A stretch of 45,044 bases of DNA from a virus. Position numbers and translations under genes: made by a program. Location of the stretch: IMG/VR virus record IMGVR_UViG_3300046533_000107, positions 1 to 45,044 of that record; one strand, given 5' to 3'. This document shows, piece by piece, positions 4,863-42,348 of this stretch. Below the pieces are notes generated by a model, which saw only the letters and a list, made by a program, of their open reading frames with translations, had not been told where the DNA came from and did no database searches. Position 1 is the first letter of the stretch. Every line of letters begins with the position of its first letter.

Positions 4863-6779
4863 TTATGTACTTTCTGCTACGGTCCTCATGACCACGGTAA
4901 GGAACCCGCCGACCGGCCCCCGGATACCGGGTGGTCCTGTCTGGCGAAACTCGAAGTCATCGATGACTACCTGCGTAACCAATTGCTGCTGAAGGTCCTG
5001 ATACAGAACCACATCACCAGCTCTCGCCACTGCTTCGAACATGTTGAGTCGGTCCTGCGTATAGCCGTCATAGCCAATGAGCTGCCCTCCCTTGTCCGTC
5101 TCTTCGTCCAGCATGAGAACTGGGAGTGTGATGATTCGTTGGCGGATGGAGCCAGGAAGTGTCTTGACCTGCCATCCGTTCATGACGGCTCCGATGGTCG
5201 GATCGACTTCACCCCTGAAGAGGGTGAAGCGTAGAGCCAGCCAGTTCTGCGGGCCCTGCGGATTGGAGATTCCTACGTCCTTCACTCCGGCTCCAGTGGT
5301 GGGGCCGTAGGTGATCGAAGGTATTTCCCCTCCGCCCTCCGTCAGTATCGTGATGTTGAGGTTGCCCTCAAGCGGTGACGGAGTTCTGATGCTGAAGAAC
5401 TTGTACAGCTTGGGCTCTTCGGTGTTGAACCGAATGCGCCCCGTCTCCAGATATCCGTTGGGCAGCAGCTCCGTGGCGTCCTCAAGGACGGCACCTTCTC
5501 CGGTCACCGAGAAGACCTTGCGGTCACTGGCTCCGAAGTTGGTTAGTTCAAGGATCTCTCCGGCATCCCCATTGAGGTAGATGTCGCGGGCGTAGGCGTA
5601 CCGTACAGCCCTTGAGGTCTGCTCCTGGATGACGTTACCCAGGTCCACCCTGTAAAGCCCGGAGAAGCCGTCGTGTGCGTTTGTGGAGCCTGTCCACATG
5701 AACCTGTCCTGGCCGACGATGCCGTTGCATCCACCTTCGGGCTCGAAGAGCAGTGGGCCATAAGTGATGTCGCCGTTGCTGTCGATCTCCCCAACGCGGA
5801 AGCCCTTGTTCGTGGCGATGCCGATGAAGCTTCCGATGTACGAGTAGATCTCATTGATCCTCTCGCCGGTAGGCATGGTGGCAGTGACGCCCGCCCACTC
5901 GAATTCGGGAACTCCTGTCGTTCCGTTGACGACGGTGAACCTATGGATCTGGCTGGTAGTGCCTGAATCCCCTGCGATATAGATGGCGGTAGGTCCATCG
6001 GTGATGGATCTCCATCGCCAGTTCGGGTCCACGTGCGTGTAATCAGCCGTGGGGAGGGGGGCTACCGCTGCGAACGGTGGCAACTGATACACCGATGGAC
6101 CCGAACCGAGGATGAGGCGATCCTTGACGAACTCAAGGACCCCATTGGTGATGGCAGTGTTGTAGCGCTGAGTGGGGGCAGCGGCATCGACACCAGTCCA
6201 AATACCATCACCTCTGGCAAATGCGTACGTATAACCCGTGGACGTCAGGTCAAAGTAAGGGCTGACGGAAACGCCGACGACTGTGGTCGTCGCTGCATCT
6301 GTCACCTTGAGCAGAGTATTGCCAGCTATGTGCCAGAATGCATCCACTCCGGTGCTGTCAACGAACCCTTGTACGAAATTGGGAGTCAAGGCCGTGGCCG
6401 AAGCCACGGCTGTGTTCCTCAGAAGCTTTAGCTGCCCACTTGTCCATGGATCGATACCCAAGGAGTCGGCAAACCTGTAGTTGAACTGGTTGTCGGTATC
6501 GGGATCCTGATAAAGGATGCCCGCACCACCATTGAAGGTCGACTGGCTTCGCAGCCACCATCCCTGAAGAGACTGTTCTCCTGGTTCTGCGAAGTTGTCG
6601 AACTGTTCCTTCCTGATCTCCGCCATCCTGTTGGTGAATGGACGCTCGTCGCTGATGGCGGAGAGGAAGGGGATACCGGCAATGGCATAGTCGTATATGT
6701 AGTCCTGAAGGGCGTACTGACCTGAGCCACCAATGCCCAGCGAGCTGAGCTGATAGGGAATCGGGTGGACTATGTCCAT
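4863..6779 (-). CDS. Beta-propeller-like tail protein, 638 aa
   Basis: This large late protein is rich in repeating beta-strand units with Gly/Asp turns. The first 110 residues carry conserved-looking aromatic segments, and the middle 300 residues show repeated WxG, YxxG and GDSG-like blade signatures, consistent with a beta-propeller. It ends in a compact, Pro/Gly-rich segment. Short-tailed phages use such a propeller in the tail nozzle, and other phages use it in minor tail proteins. It is followed by the lysis-type genes and preceded by a fibre gene. Exact role is inferred from fold style and position. Confidence 0.7.
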   Translation of the reverse strand: MDIVHPIPYQLSSLGIGGSGQYALQDYIYDYAIAGIPFLSAISDERPFTNRMAEIRKEQFDNFAEPGEQSLQGWWLRSQSTFNGGAGILYQDPDTDNQFNYRFADSLGIDPWTSGQLKLLRNTAVASATALTPNFVQGFVDSTGVDAFWHIAGNTLLKVTDAATTTVVGVSVSPYFDLTSTGYTYAFARGDGIWTGVDAAAPTQRYNTAITNGVLEFVKDRLILGSGPSVYQLPPFAAVAPLPTADYTHVDPNWRWRSITDGPTAIYIAGDSGTTSQIHRFTVVNGTTGVPEFEWAGVTATMPTGERINEIYSYIGSFIGIATNKGFRVGEIDSNGDITYGPLLFEPEGGCNGIVGQDRFMWTGSTNAHDGFSGLYRVDLGNVIQEQTSRAVRYAYARDIYLNGDAGEILELTNFGASDRKVFSVTGEGAVLEDATELLPNGYLETGRIRFNTEEPKLYKFFSIRTPSPLEGNLNITILTEGGGEIPSITYGPTTGAGVKDVGISNPQGPQNWLALRFTLFRGEVDPTIGAVMNGWQVKTLPGSIRQRIITLPVLMLDEETDKGGQLIGYDGYTQDRLNMFEAVARAGDVVLYQDLQQQLVTQVVIDDFEFRQTGPPGIRGPVGGFLTVVMRTVAEST

Positions 6780-30100: not shown

Positions 30101-30914
30101 TGGGTCTCACACACACACACACGGCCGCGATTAAACATGCCCGGGTCCGCATAGTCATGCAGCTCTGCTCACTCTGGGTGTGGACAGACTGCACAGAGAG
30201 TACAGATTGGATGGTTGAATCTCGAACAGTTCAGGCTTGAAGAGTTGAGGGCTGAACAGTGTACATACTACATAGATAGGCAGCCTCACCATATATATGC
30301 ATAGGTATGCACCATACCGCATAACCATGCAGTGTTGGAGTGTGTGCTCATATGAGCGGGCAGATGTTCAGATGTGCGCGTTCATGTATGTGGACAGCTG
30401 TACATGGATGTGAATAGAGCTTCCATAATGCGGAAGACTGCTTCCATCTAGCAGAAGCCAGGCAGATTGGGCAGATTGCCTAGGATATGCAGGCTGTGGG
30501 CGTGGATGACCATGGAATCGAAGGGGTGGGACTATACTGAGTACGCCATACGCAGTCTGCACAGGCACCAATCTCCCCACCCACACAGATCAAGGCAGAC
30601 CCACAGATCCACCCCAGAATCCACAGAACAAGCCCTCCGACAGCCTGGCAATCCAAGCCTGATCCCTGCATCCACCCATCTATTCCAAGTCCTGCGCACG
30701 CCCTTCCAGGGGGCGTGCTGATCCAGCAGAAAGTAAGACCTCTTCCACTCCGCCAACCCTTACATCCACCACTTTTCCACAGCAAATCAAAGCAAAGTAT
30801 CAGTACATCACCACAGGTCAACAGGATGATTGCAGTAATTGCTCTTGAGAAGTCTCAGATCAGGGGTAGACAGCCCACACCGTTCCGAGGATTGTTCTCT
30901 CTGTCACCACCGCT
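30100..30914. other. Candidate replication origin region with DnaA-box-like sites
   Basis: There is no supported gene. DnaA-box-like 9-mers occur at 30179-30187 and 30389-30397 (TGTGGACAG, each one base from the actinobacterial consensus read on the other strand), at 30773-30781 (TTTTCCACA), and weakly at 30617-30625. A CA dinucleotide run lies at 30109-30121, and the 30560-30790 part is pyrimidine-rich with little G on the plus strand. Together with the absence of a phage DNA polymerase this fits a DnaA-dependent or host-recruiting origin. Origin activity is inferred. Confidence 0.45.
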
Positions 30915-31855
30915 CAGCACAACCGGGCAGAGGGACTAGCCAGACCGCATCGCAAGGTGTAGCGTCTGGCGAAGTGCAGAGAGGCCGGAACCCAAGCCTT
31001 CGAGCCTGTAGGCGCCTTCCCCCAAAGGGAACGTACCTACAGAGCCGTTAGGTGAGGCAGGAAAGCCTCACAGAAGCACTGGACAGCACAACTCCACAGC
31101 GCGCTAGATGCACACCGACAAGAGCGGGAGTGCCTACCGGTCAGGCAGTACGTAGAGCCGGAAGGGAAGCCGTGAGGGGGTCCTCGGATCACCAGAGCGG
31201 ATAACCGGCACGGAAACCAGCGGCACGAAGTGTTAAGCAAAAGGCTGTCCGCGAGCAGCAATGGTCTACCCGTGAGTCGATGAACATCTAGCGCGCAGGA
31301 GAGCTTGACAGCCGGACTCGCAAGGGTCTAGCGTCTAGCACAGCAAGACAGCAAGACAGCAAGACAACTCAACATCGTGTGTATGGAGCTACGGGCCCTA
31401 ACCGGTTCTTTCGAGTCCGAGAACGCCCCTGAAGGGCGTTCGTACAGCTTAGTCAGATCTTGACGAGCGATGAGGGCAGTACAAAGGCGCCTAAGTTGAC
31501 AGCACACGACAAGACTAAGAAAGAGGCCAAGAGCGGCCAGAACGCCCCTGTAAAGGGAGCGCAACCGCAAGGGCTGGGATGGACCTTCCCGAGCATGTGG
31601 GGCTGGCAGAGAACGGCACAGACGGTCATAACGTCTGGTCGGGACAGCATCTGTCAGAGTCGGAGAAATCCAGGGCTGTACCTTGAGAACTCAACAGTGA
31701 GCAGTCTGGCAGTGCTAAACGCAGACACCTATTAGGCAAGCGTCCGTAGGGGACGCCTAGACCGAACGGATCAAGCGCAGGTCACCACCTGCGTGAGTCC
31801 AGCGTGATGGAGTTGCCAGACATTCTCTCTCGTCCCAGCGCTACGGCGCTGGGCT
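30915..31855 (+). ncRNA. Candidate large structured non-coding RNA (about 0.9 kb)
   Basis: The region has no gene but is full of short perfect hairpins. Examples: CCAGAC...GTCTGG at 30940-30969 with an inner GCAA-capped stem; CTGTAGG...CCTACAG at 31006-31042; GTGAGGC...GCCTCAC at 31052-31071; TGCCT...AGGCA at 31131-31147; GAACGCCC...GGGCGTTC at 31421-31441; CCCT-GTAA-AGGG at 31546-31557; CC-GCAA-GG at 31565-31572; GCGTCC...GGACGC at 31740-31756; CGCAGGT-CACC-ACCTGCG at 31776-31793; CCCAGCGC-TACG-GCGCTGGG at 31834-31853. GNRA and UNCG loops plus a TATGG...CCTAAC receptor-like pair suggest tertiary folding. Size and style resemble phage ornate RNAs (GOLLD, ROOL), but I cannot assign it. Strand is inferred from the downstream genes. 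Confidence 0.6.
31341..31364. repeat. CAGCAAGA tandem repeat, three copies
   Basis: Three exact head-to-tail copies of an 8-base unit, CAGCAAGA, lie inside the structured RNA region. They may be a linker, or a slippage-prone spot in the RNA. Confidence 0.8.
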
Positions 31856-32236: not shown

Positions 32237-32338
32237 ATGAACACACGATATGCGGACGACGAAGACGAAGACAAAGGGGGCGTTGACTCTGGCGAGAGCA
32301 CCGTCTTAGACGAAGAACTCAAGGATGACAGTTTTTAG
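32237..32338 (+). CDS. Small acidic protein, 33 aa
   Basis: ATG 32237 (GAGGGG about 10 nt upstream) encodes 33 residues, very acidic (DDEDEDKGGVDSGESTV). A GTG three codons upstream is possible. The stop is two bases before the first repeated RNA element. Function unknown; DNA-mimic or signal-interfering roles are pure speculation. Confidence 0.55.
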   Translation: MNTRYADDEDEDKGGVDSGESTVLDEELKDDSF

Positions 32339-32339
32339 C

Positions 32340-32404
32340 CTGTAGCCAGATGGAGCTTCTGGGCGCCCCGCAAGGGGCGTCCGGGGGTTGCAACGGCACT
32401 ACAG
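32340..32404 (+). repeat. Intergenic closed-stem RNA element, copy 1
   Basis: A 65-base element starts with CTGTAGCC and ends GGCACTACAG; CTGTAG pairs with CTACAG, and CC with GG. Inside are CCAGA...TCTGG and GCGCCCC-GCAA-GGGGCGT hairpins. It is identical base for base to the copy at 33926-33990. Confidence 0.85.
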
Positions 32405-32431
32405 CCGAACGCACCACAAGGGAGAGAGAAT

Positions 32432-32560
32432 ATGATCAAGATTGAGAATGGTGGCATCGTCGTTGCCCAGCGCAAGGACGGTTCTCGCTGCATCCTCTGG
32501 GAGAACAACAGCCTGGAGTGGTTCAGCAAGGACGACGCCAACCGCCTCTTCGGGATCTAG
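32432..32560 (+). CDS. Small hypothetical protein, 42 aa (cassette 2)
   Basis: Preceded by AAGGGAGAGAGAAT. The 42-aa product (IKIENGGIVVAQRKDGS and ILWENNSLEWFSK) resembles a small beta-hairpin domain. Not recognised. Confidence 0.65.
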   Translation: MIKIENGGIVVAQRKDGSRCILWENNSLEWFSKDDANRLFGI

Positions 32561-32568
32561 GAGATATC

Positions 32569-32916
32569 ATGAGCAAGCTTCGCTACCTCACAACGTACTC
32601 CGGCCCCTCTTTCGGGGCTGGTTACCCGTTCGAGAAGATGGAGGGATTCAACTCCCTCTACGAAGTCACGTGCGAAATGCATCGTCGTCAGACCATGGGC
32701 TACGGCTACACCACTACGTATGCCGAGAATGCCGATGGCCTGTACGTCGAGTGGGAGCCCGAGAAGCGTTACGACTTCCCCGGAACCACGACCGAAGACA
32801 TCATGGAGCTGTACGGAGTTACCGATAAGGGTGACGGTACATACTTCCGTCACGACGAACCCTCATTCCGCCTCAGTGTCGGCCCTCGCGGAGGGATCGC
32901 CAGAGAGGCTTGCTGA
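32569..32916 (+). CDS. Hypothetical protein, 115 aa
   Basis: ATG 32569 (GGAGATATC upstream) begins a 115-aa protein with a Tyr/Gly-rich start and a central YVEWEPEKRYDFPGTT segment. Upstream gene ends 8 nt before. No family. Confidence 0.7.
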   Translation: MSKLRYLTTYSGPSFGAGYPFEKMEGFNSLYEVTCEMHRRQTMGYGYTTTYAENADGLYVEWEPEKRYDFPGTTTEDIMELYGVTDKGDGTYFRHDEPSFRLSVGPRGGIAREAC

Positions 32917-32918
32917 GT

Positions 32919-32977
32919 CAGTGACCAAGGTTGGTCTCGGTTCCCTTCGGGGAACCGGGGCCTTCCCGGCATCACTG
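32919..32977 (+). repeat. Intergenic closed-stem RNA element, copy 2 (divergent stem)
   Basis: CAGTGACC...GGCATCACTG: CAGTGA pairs with TCACTG, CC with GG, and the CA bulge is kept. An inner AAGG...CCTT and GGTTCCC-TTCG-GGGAACC stem are present. The stem sequence is entirely different from the other copies but the layout is the same. Confidence 0.75.
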
Positions 32978-32998
32978 CCGAAACAAGGGAGAGAGAAC

Positions 32999-33331
32999 AT
33001 GTCCTACACCGCAAAGGCCCGCAAGGGTGCTGAACTGCTGGACACCCACAATCCCGGATGGTTCCGGCACGTCAGCCTGAAGACGCTCGACATGCAAAGC
33101 ATCGATAAGTGCATCATCGGCCAAGTTTATGGAGACTGGGGTCGTGGGATGGACGAGTTGGATCACACCTCCGACAACAGTGACTGGAGGAAGCTTCAGG
33201 CCGACTACGGCTTTGATCTTCTGGAAGATGCCTACGAGGCCGCAGGCGCCCCCGACTGGAACGAAAACTGGGCAGCCCTTCAGTCCGCATGGATTGAAGA
33301 GATCATGAAGCGCACGAACGACAACGATTGA
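32999..33331 (+). CDS. Hypothetical protein, 110 aa (cassette 3)
   Basis: Starts after AAGGGAGAGAGAAC. A 110-aa acidic protein with Trp-rich elements (NPGWFRHVSLKTLDMQSI, NENWAALQSAWIEEI). Helical. Function unknown. Ends one base before the next repeated RNA element. Confidence 0.7.
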   Translation: MSYTAKARKGAELLDTHNPGWFRHVSLKTLDMQSIDKCIIGQVYGDWGRGMDELDHTSDNSDWRKLQADYGFDLLEDAYEAAGAPDWNENWAALQSAWIEEIMKRTNDND

Positions 33332-33392
33332 CTGTAACCAGGTGGAGCTAGCGGGGCCCGAAAGGGCCCCGTTGGTTGCAACGGCATTACAG
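33332..33392 (+). repeat. Intergenic closed-stem RNA element, copy 3 (covaried pair)
   Basis: CTGTAACC...GGCATTACAG: here the closing G-C of copies 1, 4 and 5 is replaced by A-T (CTGTAA with TTACAG). An inner GGGGCCC-GAAA-GGGCCCC hairpin is also present. Compensatory change supports a real RNA stem. Confidence 0.85.
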
Positions 33393-33419
33393 CCGACAGC
33401 ACTACCAGGGAGAGAGACA

Positions 33420-33746
33420 ATGGAAGCTGACCGCTATGCGATCGACTACGACCACACCTTTGGCGGATGGGGAGTAGTTGAGGCAAAGACTGGCCTTTTT
33501 GTCGGACACACCGGCACTCAGGCCGGAGCCAGGGTTATGTGCCGCAATCTCAACAAGCGGCACACCTACCTTCCCGTCTTCAGCACGGAGAGCTTTTCCG
33601 TTCGACCCCTCACTGAATCCGAAATCCATGAGGATGCAGAGATCTGGGGTGAGGCGATCACTCAGCTCAAAACTCCGGACGGCAACAAGATGTTCGTCGT
33701 CTTCGGATGCGAGTTTGGTGACCGCGAATGGAGGATCTACGCATGA
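33420..33746 (+). CDS. Hypothetical protein, 108 aa (cassette 4)
   Basis: Preceded by CCAGGGAGAGAGACA. 108-aa protein with a beta-rich first half (YAIDYDHTFGGWGVVEAKTG) and a helix-strand second half. Overlaps the next gene by ATGA. Confidence 0.7.
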   Translation: MEADRYAIDYDHTFGGWGVVEAKTGLFVGHTGTQAGARVMCRNLNKRHTYLPVFSTESFSVRPLTESEIHEDAEIWGEAITQLKTPDGNKMFVVFGCEFGDREWRIYA

Positions 33747-33931
33747 GCTATCTCGGCAACGAGTTCGCCAAGCTTGGATGGGGCGACGATGGCAGGCTCA
33801 AGATCACCTCTGAGCAAGGCGAGACGGACTGGATCGACATCAGCCCGGAGAGCATGTCGGCAATTCTTCTGATCCTCAAGCGCGAGCAAGACAAGGGCAT
33901 CAGCGAACTCATTGAGAGGCTTGGACTGTAG
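33743..33931 (+). CDS. Small hypothetical protein, 62 aa
   Basis: ATG 33743 overlaps the previous stop. The 62-aa acidic product ends in a helix (AILLILKREQDKGISELI). Its stop codon TAG is inside the next repeated RNA element (CTGTAG). Confidence 0.7.
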   Translation: MSYLGNEFAKLGWGDDGRLKITSEQGETDWIDISPESMSAILLILKREQDKGISELIERLGL

Positions 33932-33990
33932 CCAGATGGAGCTTCTGGGCGCCCCGCAAGGGGCGTCCGGGGGTTGCAACGGCACTACAG
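33926..33990 (+). repeat. Intergenic closed-stem RNA element, copy 4 (identical to copy 1)
   Basis: All 65 bases match the element at 32340-32404. It overlaps the stop codon of the upstream gene, so the terminating ribosome covers part of the stem. Confidence 0.9.
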
Positions 33991-34018
33991 TGAGTAGTGT
34001 TGACAAAGGAGAGAGACA

Positions 34019-34414
34019 ATGGAGCGAATTACCCTCGACTTCGCCATCAAGGCTGCACTCGATGCGGCTGCACTGATGCCGGAAGGGTACATCTACACCA
34101 ATCCTGATGGTGAGGTAGCTGTCGAACTCTCCCTGATCGGAGGCGGAATCAGCTGTTCTTACTTCGACGACAAAGACGGAAGCCCTTCGTGCCTTGTGGG
34201 GCACATCCTTCATGCCGCCGGGATCACCGCACAGCACATCCCCGCCGGACACTCCGGATCTGGGTCTCACACTCTCATCGAAGAACTCACAGAGTGTGAG
34301 GGATTGATGGTTGATATGGATGCTTCATCCTTCATGAGCACAATCCAGAATCTTCAGGATTCTGGAGTTCCGTGGGATGACGCTATCAGGGAAGGCATTT
34401 CAGCGTATCTGTAG
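34019..34414 (+). CDS. Cassette protein, paralogue A, 131 aa
   Basis: Follows AAAGGAGAGAGACA. The 131-aa protein has a C-terminal segment, MSTIQNLQDSGVPWDDAI, and an internal GSPSCLVGHIL that is shared with the gene at 35382 (GTPSCLVGRML and TLQDNQDRGVPWGDAL). These are paralogues, about 40% similar by eye in these blocks. Unknown function; small duplicated early genes are often host-takeover or anti-defence proteins. Confidence 0.75.
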   Translation: MERITLDFAIKAALDAAALMPEGYIYTNPDGEVAVELSLIGGGISCSYFDDKDGSPSCLVGHILHAAGITAQHIPAGHSGSGSHTLIEELTECEGLMVDMDASSFMSTIQNLQDSGVPWDDAIREGISAYL

Positions 34415-34465
34415 CCAGGCTGAGGGCGCACCCCTTCGGGGGTGCGCCTTGAGACGGCACTACAG
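34409..34465 (+). repeat. Intergenic closed-stem RNA element, copy 5
   Basis: CTGTAGCC...GGCACTACAG closes a GGCGCACCCC-TTCG-GGGGTGCGCC hairpin, different in sequence and loop from the others. Overlaps the previous gene's TAG. Confidence 0.85.
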
Positions 34466-34492
34466 GTAGTAGTACCGAAAAGGGAGAGAGAC

Positions 34493-34906
34493 ATGAGCGA
34501 GATTTGCACCAACTCCGCATGTAGCGTTCACGGTCGTAACGACCTCACTGTCATTGGTGAGTACGACCACCCGGTTTTGATTACCTACTGCGGAGATCGT
34601 GCGGTCTACACTGACACCACCCTGGACACCGAAGGGCTTTCCCCCTCCGATCGTCTGCGGATGGCTGGTGAACTGATGGATATCCTCGCAAGCGAGGATG
34701 AGAGCGAGATTCGTCGGGCCGCACTGGAGATCGTCAACGATTTCCTGGTCTCTTACACCTACATCTACACCGTGGGTGAAGGCACCATCGATCAGGCGAT
34801 TGCCGACTACAATAGCGAATGTATCCGGATCGAGCACGCACCCGAAGAGTCCTCCGACATTCACTTCCGTGAGGTCAACAGGATCGAGGGAATCAAGAAC
34901 GCCTAG
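34493..34906 (+). CDS. Hypothetical protein, 137 aa (cassette 6)
   Basis: Follows AAAGGGAGAGAGAC. The 137-aa acidic protein has an N-terminal Cys pair (CTNSACSVHG) that could bind zinc and a helical middle (LRMAGELMDILASEDESEI). Not recognised. Confidence 0.7.
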   Translation: MSEICTNSACSVHGRNDLTVIGEYDHPVLITYCGDRAVYTDTTLDTEGLSPSDRLRMAGELMDILASEDESEIRRAALEIVNDFLVSYTYIYTVGEGTIDQAIADYNSECIRIEHAPEESSDIHFREVNRIEGIKNA

Positions 34907-34954
34907 CAGCAGTCCAGCGCGCCTCTCGTAGGTGCGTTGGGTCGGTTCGCTAGG
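34902..34954 (+). repeat. Intergenic closed-stem element with unrelated stem
   Basis: CCTAGC pairs with GCTAGG and encloses CCAGCGC...GCGTTGG. It lacks the CC/GGCA core of the other copies, but has the same position between a stop codon and the GGGAGAGAGA leader. Confidence 0.55.
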
Positions 34955-34977
34955 ACCGAAAACAAGGGAGAGAGACC

Positions 34978-35245: not shown

Positions 35246-35265
35246 CCCACCCCCGAAGGGGTGGG
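35246..35265. terminator. Hairpin after cassette 7
   Basis: CCCACCCC-CGAA-GGGGTGGG, an 8-bp perfect stem, just after the stop at 35238. No T run on either strand, so partial terminator or RNA stabiliser. Confidence 0.6.
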
Positions 35266-35272
35266 CGGTGAA

Positions 35273-35352
35273 GGATGTACGGGAGTGCCGAAACATAAGT
35301 AGGCCCCGGCGGCTGTGTCTGGCCAATGCCGGTTCTTCCCTTCCGTACATCC
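35273..35352 (+). promoter_or_regulatory. Structured 5' leader, candidate cis-regulatory RNA
   Basis: GGATGTACGG at 35273-35282 pairs perfectly with CCGTACATCC at 35343-35352, enclosing about 60 bases that contain GGCC repeats and a CCGG pair. It lies 30 bases ahead of the start at 35382. A riboswitch or protein-binding leader is possible; it does not match a class that I can name. Confidence 0.5.
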
Positions 35353-35381
35353 CTTTCCGCCCATCAACAAGAGGAGCAATC

Positions 35382-35726
35382 ATGAACCTTGACCGCGCCA
35401 TCGAGTTGGCCAAGGTGGAAATCGAGAAGGAGGGGGAGGAGTTTGTCTACAAGGCGCCCGATCTCTCGTGCGTAAATTACAGAATGGACGGCACTCCCTC
35501 GTGTCTCGTTGGCAGGATGCTAGATGCCGAAGGGCTCATAACTTTCCAGAGCCTCAGTGAGGCGAATCTCATCATGTCGCCGGTCACTTCCCTCGACTTC
35601 GACCTAGACCTGGACCTCCCCGAAGACACTCTTGGGTTCCTTCGGACCCTTCAGGATAATCAAGATAGAGGCGTTCCCTGGGGTGACGCCCTCAAGAAGA
35701 GCCTTCAGGCCCTTCGTCCAGCCTAA
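35382..35726 (+). CDS. Cassette protein, paralogue B, 114 aa
   Basis: Preceded by AAGAGGAGCAATC, not the GGGAGAGAGA leader. 114 aa, sharing the GxPSCLVGxxLxAxG and TLQDNQDRGVPWGDAL blocks with the gene at 34019. It is acidic (DFDLDLDLPEDT). Function unknown. Confidence 0.75.
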   Translation: MNLDRAIELAKVEIEKEGEEFVYKAPDLSCVNYRMDGTPSCLVGRMLDAEGLITFQSLSEANLIMSPVTSLDFDLDLDLPEDTLGFLRTLQDNQDRGVPWGDALKKSLQALRPA

Positions 35727-42237: not shown

Positions 42238-42309
42238 GTCCCTGTAGCTCAGTTGGTACGAGCACCCTCGCCAGAGGGAAGGTCGCAGGTTCGATCCCTG
42301 CCAGGGATA
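42238..42309 (+). tRNA. tRNA-like gene with an abnormal anticodon loop (Gly-like)
   Basis: A 72-nt cloverleaf: acceptor GTCCCTG with CAGGGAT (one G-U), D arm GCTC/GAGC with a 9-nt loop, T arm GCAGG-TTCGATC-CCTGC. The anticodon arm is odd: CCCTC-GCCA-GAGGG leaves a 4-nt loop, or CCCT-CGCCAG-AGGG a 6-nt loop, instead of seven. Relative to a glycine tRNA with GCC anticodon it lacks TT before and A after GCCA. It may be a degraded or edited tRNA-Gly, or a tRNA mimic. No CCA encoded. Confidence 0.65.
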
Positions 42310-42348
42310 CGCAAATGCACACAAATCTACCCAGAATCTAGAGGAATC

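Follow-up and report, generated by a model that had tools for sequence, protein, structure and literature searches.

A run of very small early phage genes carries at its junctions a repeated RNA element in which two conserved, mutually exclusive helices share one strand; as judged from sequence comparison, both helices are under selection. We consider it possible, with a probability of roughly 45%, that the element is a bistable intercistronic RNA that would report translation termination and couple the end of one gene to the next.

Copies of the element in the window

The window (the whole stretch of DNA analyzed, a 45,044-bp IMG/VR virus record) comes from a relative of the cultured Streptomyces phages of subfamily Beephvirinae. 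Its portal and major capsid DNA is 70-84% identical to that of Beephvirinae phages, and its genes for terminase, endolysin, major capsid protein, DnaB-like helicase, metallophosphoesterase, and a sigma-like protein are typical of the subfamily. The RNA elements sit among the small early genes at about 32-36 kb. None of the ten small-gene (cassette) proteins tested had a Pfam match and three fell in PHROGs of unknown function, so the function of the genes gave no clue to the element.

An earlier note on this DNA had described five intergenic elements with a 6-bp outer stem, CC opposite GG, and the motif GGCA, and all of these features are present in the sequence, on the + strand. The first helix, P1, has the outer stem CTGTAG/CTACAG in copy 1 (32340-32404), CAGTGA/TCACTG in copy 2 (32919-32977, a variant with a U.U mismatch), and CTGTAA/TTACAG in copy 3 (33332-33392). 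These three copies start 1, 2, and 0 nt after the stop codons TAG (32336-32338), TGA (32914-32916), and TGA (33329-33331), respectively, while copies 4 (33926-33990) and 5 (34409-34465) contain an in-frame TAG inside the 5' arm, at element position 4 (33929-33931 and 34412-34414); the relation to stop codons is the one that the note had reported. Copies 1 and 4 have the same sequence for exactly 65 nt, and their flanks differ immediately on both sides. All five folds are far stronger than those of dinucleotide shuffles (z -4.1 to -5.9; -4.1 for copy 1 and -4.9 for copy 2), and the copies score 59.1 (E 1.8e-14), 51.1, 61.8, 59.1, and 67.9 bits, in order, with the covariance model described below. 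A conserved Shine-Dalgarno motif, AAGGGAGAGAGA, lies at 32418-32429 (+), and the same motif follows every element (32985, 33406, 34005, 34480, and 34964).

Phylogenetic extent and covariation of P1

A first pattern scan of viral contigs returned 30 stretches in which chance matches were mixed with clear copies in a few contigs. Only stretches that had both the inner fold and an early-gene context were kept as real, the others being unstructured chance matches. A structure-based listing then gave 21 distinct copies, which were scored for covariation without an energy model. In this set, 93.8% of P1 cells were paired (68.9% in shuffled copies), 15 of the 20 pairs had changed on both sides, and the covariation score was 0.689, compared to 0.198 for shuffled copies and at most 0.125 for slid registers. 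The compensatory changes that had been noted among the five window copies are thus real and extend well beyond them.

A covariance model, R1, gave about 85 matches of at least 30 bits once two further degenerate scans had been made; 82 distinct copies are the basis of the P1 and P2 counts that follow. Beyond the window, the model found about 80 further copies, spread over about 30 phage records, some of which have as many as nine. Among cultured Beephvirinae, Dennebes, FlowerPower, Stella, and Manuel have exactly one copy each, JXY1 has one that R1 first placed two bases short, and Treat has no R1 copy. The copies in Dennebes, Stella, and some metagenomic records lie at one syntenic junction, as indicated by conserved downstream sequences. 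At least one copy-bearing record, the 63-kb contig L090, whose tape-measure protein is a different one, falls outside the Beephvirinae-like set. Only two of 296 Streptomyces genomes had a match, one of them weak, which argues that the element is essentially phage-borne.

The element had been taken to be undescribed, and in Rfam no family matched it at threshold; the whole window yielded only two tRNAs, and a permissive search gave only chance miRNA and SrbA matches far below threshold. A BLAST search of the element DNA against named phages returned weak chance pieces only, which is why the covariance model was needed.

We counted P1 columns from each end of the 82 copies, free of any alignment. 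The outer part consists of six outer pairs followed by C7-G57 (82/82) and C8-G56, and the seemingly invariant CC/GG is compensated to CT/AG in eight copies. A9 is unpaired in 80 of the 82 copies. Further in, columns 11-13 pair with 52-54 in a short helix, which is followed by a conserved mismatch (G.G in 70 copies, U.U in 6) and a variable inner hairpin that begins A-U, G.U, C-G, in which the G.U at columns 16/49 is kept in 66 copies. Over all P1 pairs there are 112 G.U cells and 18 A.C cells, an excess which argues that selection acts on the sense RNA strand and not on the DNA or the antisense strand. Taken together, the copies identify a conserved sense-strand RNA. Copies are 50-65 nt long; we rejected stop-codon readthrough as an explanation since such lengths would preserve no reading frame.

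A second helix competes with P1

Column 55 is C in nearly all copies, even where its P1 partner is C or A, and the sequence 3' of the element is nearly always (T)GCCG, but TGCTG where the element has AGCA and TACTG where it has AGTA. The constancy of C55 and the matching downstream sequence point to a second hairpin, P2, in which C55-G56-G57-C58-A59 pairs downstream. The P2 strand comprises C55-GG-CA plus the P1 3' arm; what the earlier note had described as a CA bulge is therefore not a mere bulge. C55 is paired in P2 in 78 of the 82 copies, and P2 is 4-10 bp long.

When downstream sequences were permuted among copies, P2 was weaker in all 500 trials (-7.54 as observed, -6.25 permuted). In the subset of 29 copies with something other than CCG at the start of the downstream sequence, mean P2 energy was -9.45 kcal/mol, compared to -7.06 when permuted (0/1000). 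The triplet made up of column 8, column 56, and the downstream partner is (C,G,C) 66 times and (T,A,T) seven times, so that base 56 covaries with both of its partners. At two pairs of orthologous junctions both helices change in concert. Relative to the window junction at 32340, its ortholog in contig L038 (position 7579; upstream coding end 80% identical) has TAG/CTA changed to TGA/TCA, CC to CT, GGCA to AGTA, and the downstream strand to TACTG; the other pair is L004 9962 and L033 7927 (89%).

In the window, all on the + strand, P2 of copy 1 (32394-32407, CGGC acuaca GCCG) excludes the outer P1 stem, that of copy 2 (32967-32980) reads CGGCA ucac UGCCG, and that of copy 3 (33382-33395, CGGC auuaca GCCG) replaces the outer stem in the free MFE structure. 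Copy 4 has a long form of 9 bp (33980-34002, CGGCACUAC aguga GUAGUGUUG), which is the predicted MFE state, and copy 5 has CGG.CACUAC..GUAGU.CCG (34455-34477). The outer stem of P1 and P2 share nucleotides and are hence mutually exclusive. A pseudoknot in which the two coexist was judged impossible, given the common nucleotides and a crossing loop that would be 0-1 nt.

Predicted energies of the two folds differ by no more than a few kcal/mol: G(P2)-G(P1) has a mean of +0.75 kcal/mol (sd 1.85), and of +1.92 with permuted downstream sequences. Among the window copies, 33926 is predicted to favor P2 by 2.4 and 32340 to favor P1 by 2.3, and at 34409 the two states are equal (-38.1 each). The RNA element of the earlier note is real, repeated in phages, and located at stops, and the note's own tests on covariation and on hits elsewhere both spoke for it. 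A static closed stem does not describe it, however, since its conserved strand can pair with either of two partners that exclude each other.

Anchoring at the upstream stop and the downstream start

The best-scoring upstream stop codon lies at element position 2 or 4, within the 5' arm, in 46 of the 82 copies, and ends 0-2 nt upstream of the element in 16 others; in about a quarter of the copies, with ORFs called mechanically, it lies elsewhere. At the other side, the end of P2 is 18.9 nt (sd 2.6) from the next start codon, and the distance from the end of P1 is looser (23.7 nt, sd 3.9). With one strand tied to the stop and another to the start, the middle strand would be the one that chooses.

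The same architecture at sequence-unrelated junctions

Judging by predicted pairing, the architecture recurs at junctions of the same phages whose sequence is unrelated to the element. At a sixth junction in the window (34902-34959), CCTAGC, which includes the stop TAG at 34904-34906, pairs with GCTAGG to form P1 (34902-34954, +; fold z -4.8), and P2 (34942-34959, +; UCGGUUC gcua GGACCGA) encloses the whole P1 3' strand. Junctions of unrelated sequence in Treat (CCTAGTG...GCGATCC-acta-GGATCGC), Manuel (CCTAGCA...CCCCT-gct-AGGGG), and Stella (CCAGTG...GATCC-actgg-GGATC) follow the same logic. The sixth junction, the downstream pairing, and the CC/GG to CT/AG compensation had all escaped the first reading of the window.

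The P1/P2 rule was first seen in Treat and the window and then tested on 37 annotated Beephvirinae junctions without R1 elements, which come from related phages and so are not independent. The hairpin preceding the Shine-Dalgarno averages -11.5 at these junctions, compared to -6.8 (sd 0.5) when shuffled. Its core scores -10.9 against the window around its own stop codon and -8.7 (sd 0.35) against those of other junctions (0/5000). Control junctions from phiC31, Anaya, and TM4 (15 junctions) showed neither the hairpin nor the stop-window effect. In all 14 sequence-unrelated junctions that were modeled, the 3' strand of P1 falls within the P2 hairpin, and P1 is predicted to be favored by 0.8-8.4 kcal/mol, which implies that forming P2 at these junctions would need a ribosome or another factor. 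A per-junction shuffle test was weak (8/42 at p<=0.05), and an automatic ORF-based junction set was noisy and gave a smaller signal than the annotated junctions.

A possible link between termination and the next gene

The sequence shows four segments: strand a, at the upstream stop codon; an inner hairpin, which is stable; strand a', preceded by CGGCA; and strand b', just before the next Shine-Dalgarno. Strand a' pairs either with a, giving P1 as a long hairpin over the stop codon, or with b', giving the local hairpin P2. In the bistable-RNA reading, P1 would form when no ribosome is present. A ribosome that holds a stop codon in the A site extends about 12 nt past it, and a ribosome at the upstream stop would thereby cover the outer P1 stem, freeing a' and letting P2 close beside the ribosome-binding site of the next gene. 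Once the ribosome departs, P1 would refold and bring the stop codon to about 20-25 nt from the next start.

The likely output would be that termination on gene N is coupled to handover to, or initiation on, gene N+1 within the early operon; handover could be of the ribosome or of a subunit, or the output may instead be control of RNA processing. We favor coupling since the element is anchored both to the stop and to the start, and of the three functions raised in the earlier note (coupling to termination, RNA processing, and protection) it fits the anatomy best. Accessibility of the Shine-Dalgarno and start codon does not differ between the P1 and P2 states (0.583 and 0.592), which indicates that classical RNA-unfolding coupling is not the mechanism. 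Since Shine-Dalgarno masking and U-tailed termination are both unsupported, we infer the output, as well as the control by the ribosome, and the output step is the least certain part of this explanation. A review describes one library screen in which structure predicted just 3' of a stop codon was correlated with reduced coupling (PMC12548453).

Alternative explanations

An intercistronic processing site is an unlikely alternative, in which host RNase III would cut P1 at a point placed by the G.G or U.U mismatch and P2 would then form at the new downstream 5' end and protect it. P1, which stands between genes of a single operon, is a hairpin of about 20-30 bp that includes a conserved mismatch, and a cut in the inner stem would leave the whole of P2 on the downstream fragment, yet such processing would leave unexplained both the stop codon inside the 5' arm and the matching of the outer stem to P2. 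The RNase III sites of T7 are likewise hairpins between early phage genes, irregular ones within a polycistronic mRNA, and we know of no stop-codon strand or competing second hairpin conserved at them. We regard transcription terminators or attenuators as less probable still. Versions lacking U-tracts have reportedly been found (1995) in the early intergenic regions of the actinophage phiC31, and the elements are likewise strong GC-rich hairpins right after stops in an actinophage early region. However, no element has the U-run that follows the GC hairpin of an intrinsic terminator: a T-run is absent 3' of every element, and the downstream sequence is CCGA..AAGGGAGAG; no sigma-70-like promoter was found in the region; the 17-35 nt between element and next start leave no room for a new promoter; and the phiC31 junctions do not follow the P1/P2 rule.

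It is similarly improbable that the elements are sites for an RNA-binding protein, from the phage or its host, that regulates them together along the early operon. The unpaired A9, the G.G/U.U mismatch, and the CGGCA strand are all conserved as such a site would be, but at many junctions the architecture persists although the sequence is unrelated, a change that would abolish binding by a sequence-specific protein, and no candidate protein was identified. Least probable of all, in our estimation, is a mobile DNA hairpin or recombination joint (REP-, MITE-, or attC-like) that spreads between cassette genes and whose RNA fold is incidental. Copies that are identical up to the exact ends of P1 and differ in their flanks, such as window copies 1 and 4 and several in L004, are what this would produce; the sense-strand pairing rich in G.U, the use by P2 of downstream sequence outside the repeat, and the single fixed copies in cultured phages all speak against it. 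Nor did we find the constant foot (GTAG) or R-box (GTTRRRY/RYYYAAC) that is recognized as single-stranded DNA in REP or attC elements: the outer arm varies (CTGTAG, CTGAGA, CAGTGA, CCATGA, and others), with the G.U wobble conserved on the sense strand. Copying by recombination can, in any case, coexist with a function of the RNA.

Comparison with known systems

In the trp and erm leaders and in lambda cIII mRNA, one strand has two exclusive partners and the choice between them is set by a ribosome or an RNase. Such attenuators and bistable phage leaders act mostly in leaders, where they switch a terminator or a Shine-Dalgarno. The element shares with these RNA switches the two exclusive conserved helices with a common strand, but its presumed sensor is an intergenic stop codon and neither output is present, as neither state is a terminator or a mask over the ribosome-binding site. 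In RNA-unfolding coupling (f1 VII/IX, MS2 coat/lysis, and E. coli rpmI-rplT; PMC12548453), a ribosome finishing gene N likewise alters structure before gene N+1, but there the structure masks a ribosome-binding site, which here is equally open in both states, and the element occurs at many junctions.

The closest described elements are the start-associated and extended start-associated sequences (SAS/ESAS) found in mycobacteriophages of cluster K (Pope 2011, PMC3203893; Adephagia 2024, PMC11373665), which are also repeated inverted repeats before a Shine-Dalgarno-like motif at actinophage early-gene junctions. The ESAS authors concluded that repeat variation does not support RNA pairing (PMC3203893), and promoters within SAS/ESAS were proposed later (PMC11373665). 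ESAS repeats keep their sequence, whereas the element varies in sequence and keeps its pairing, with compensation at 15 of 20 pairs. In place of the 13-bp GGGATAGGAGCCC motif with 17-bp inverted repeats of conserved sequence, it has freely varying arms and the motif AAGGGAGAGAGA. Unlike ESAS, it also includes a stop codon and a second, exclusive hairpin, and the junctions of TM4 and Anaya gave no P1/P2 signal.

Most known RNA switches that sense ribosomes are single leaders; in this case a single architecture recurs at most junctions between early genes throughout a phage subfamily, and a stop codon appears to be the sensor. A broader and more doubtful version of the bistable-RNA reading is that a ribosome-operated, sequence-independent RNA toggle stands at nearly every early-operon junction and forms a genetic relay, in which the sequence leading up to each start competes with the preceding gene's stop codon for one strand. 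If so, structure alone would pass translation from gene to gene, or would set the dose of each gene. Should the proposed mechanism be true, these junctions would offer a natural test bed for translational coupling, where the end of translation on one gene controls the gene that follows, and a compact part for operon construction that does not depend on sequence. The element also provides a covariance-defined marker with which unrecognized small genes in actinophages can be found and annotated.

A second structured RNA and a candidate noncoding RNA near the early cassette

The window carries another structured RNA at 35250-35375, distinct from the junction element. Its long outer stem (GGATGTACGG/CCGTACATCC) undergoes compensatory changes, to GGATGCACGG/CCGTGCATCC among others, and encloses a hairpin, GCC-GAAACATAAGTA-GGC, with a nearly invariant loop. 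The RNA is shared with the Beephvirinae phages Treat, Manuel and FlowerPower and with the phage records L033, L079, L081 and L093, and an Rfam search of the window returned no match to it. The invariance of the loop suggests, from sequence conservation, a putative binding site or aptamer.

Immediately upstream of the early cassette, we found no convincing gene in a stretch of ~880 nt (30880-31760), which has a predicted fold energy of -353 kcal/mol compared with -312 kcal/mol for shuffled sequences (z -5.9). This stretch is a candidate large noncoding RNA.

Apparent gene duplication in the cassette and a remnant element in L038

Two cassette genes (34019-34414 and 35382-35726) match phrog_572, a phage protein family of unknown function, so duplication here seems to have affected genes as well as junction elements. 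A 21-nt remnant of the junction element, CTGAGACCACGGGCATCTCAG, occurs in another phage record, L038, at 6099-6119; its outer stem is complete, the inner hairpin is absent, and a Shine-Dalgarno sequence is still present downstream. This natural deletion could show whether the junction element requires the inner hairpin.

A tRNA among the replication genes

ARAGORN predicted a tRNA among replication genes at 42238-42310, reporting a two-base anticodon (cc) and no amino acid identity; the same interval also received a tRNA score from Rfam. Near the same exonuclease and WhiB genes in relatives, a tRNA is annotated as Pro, Leu or pseudo.
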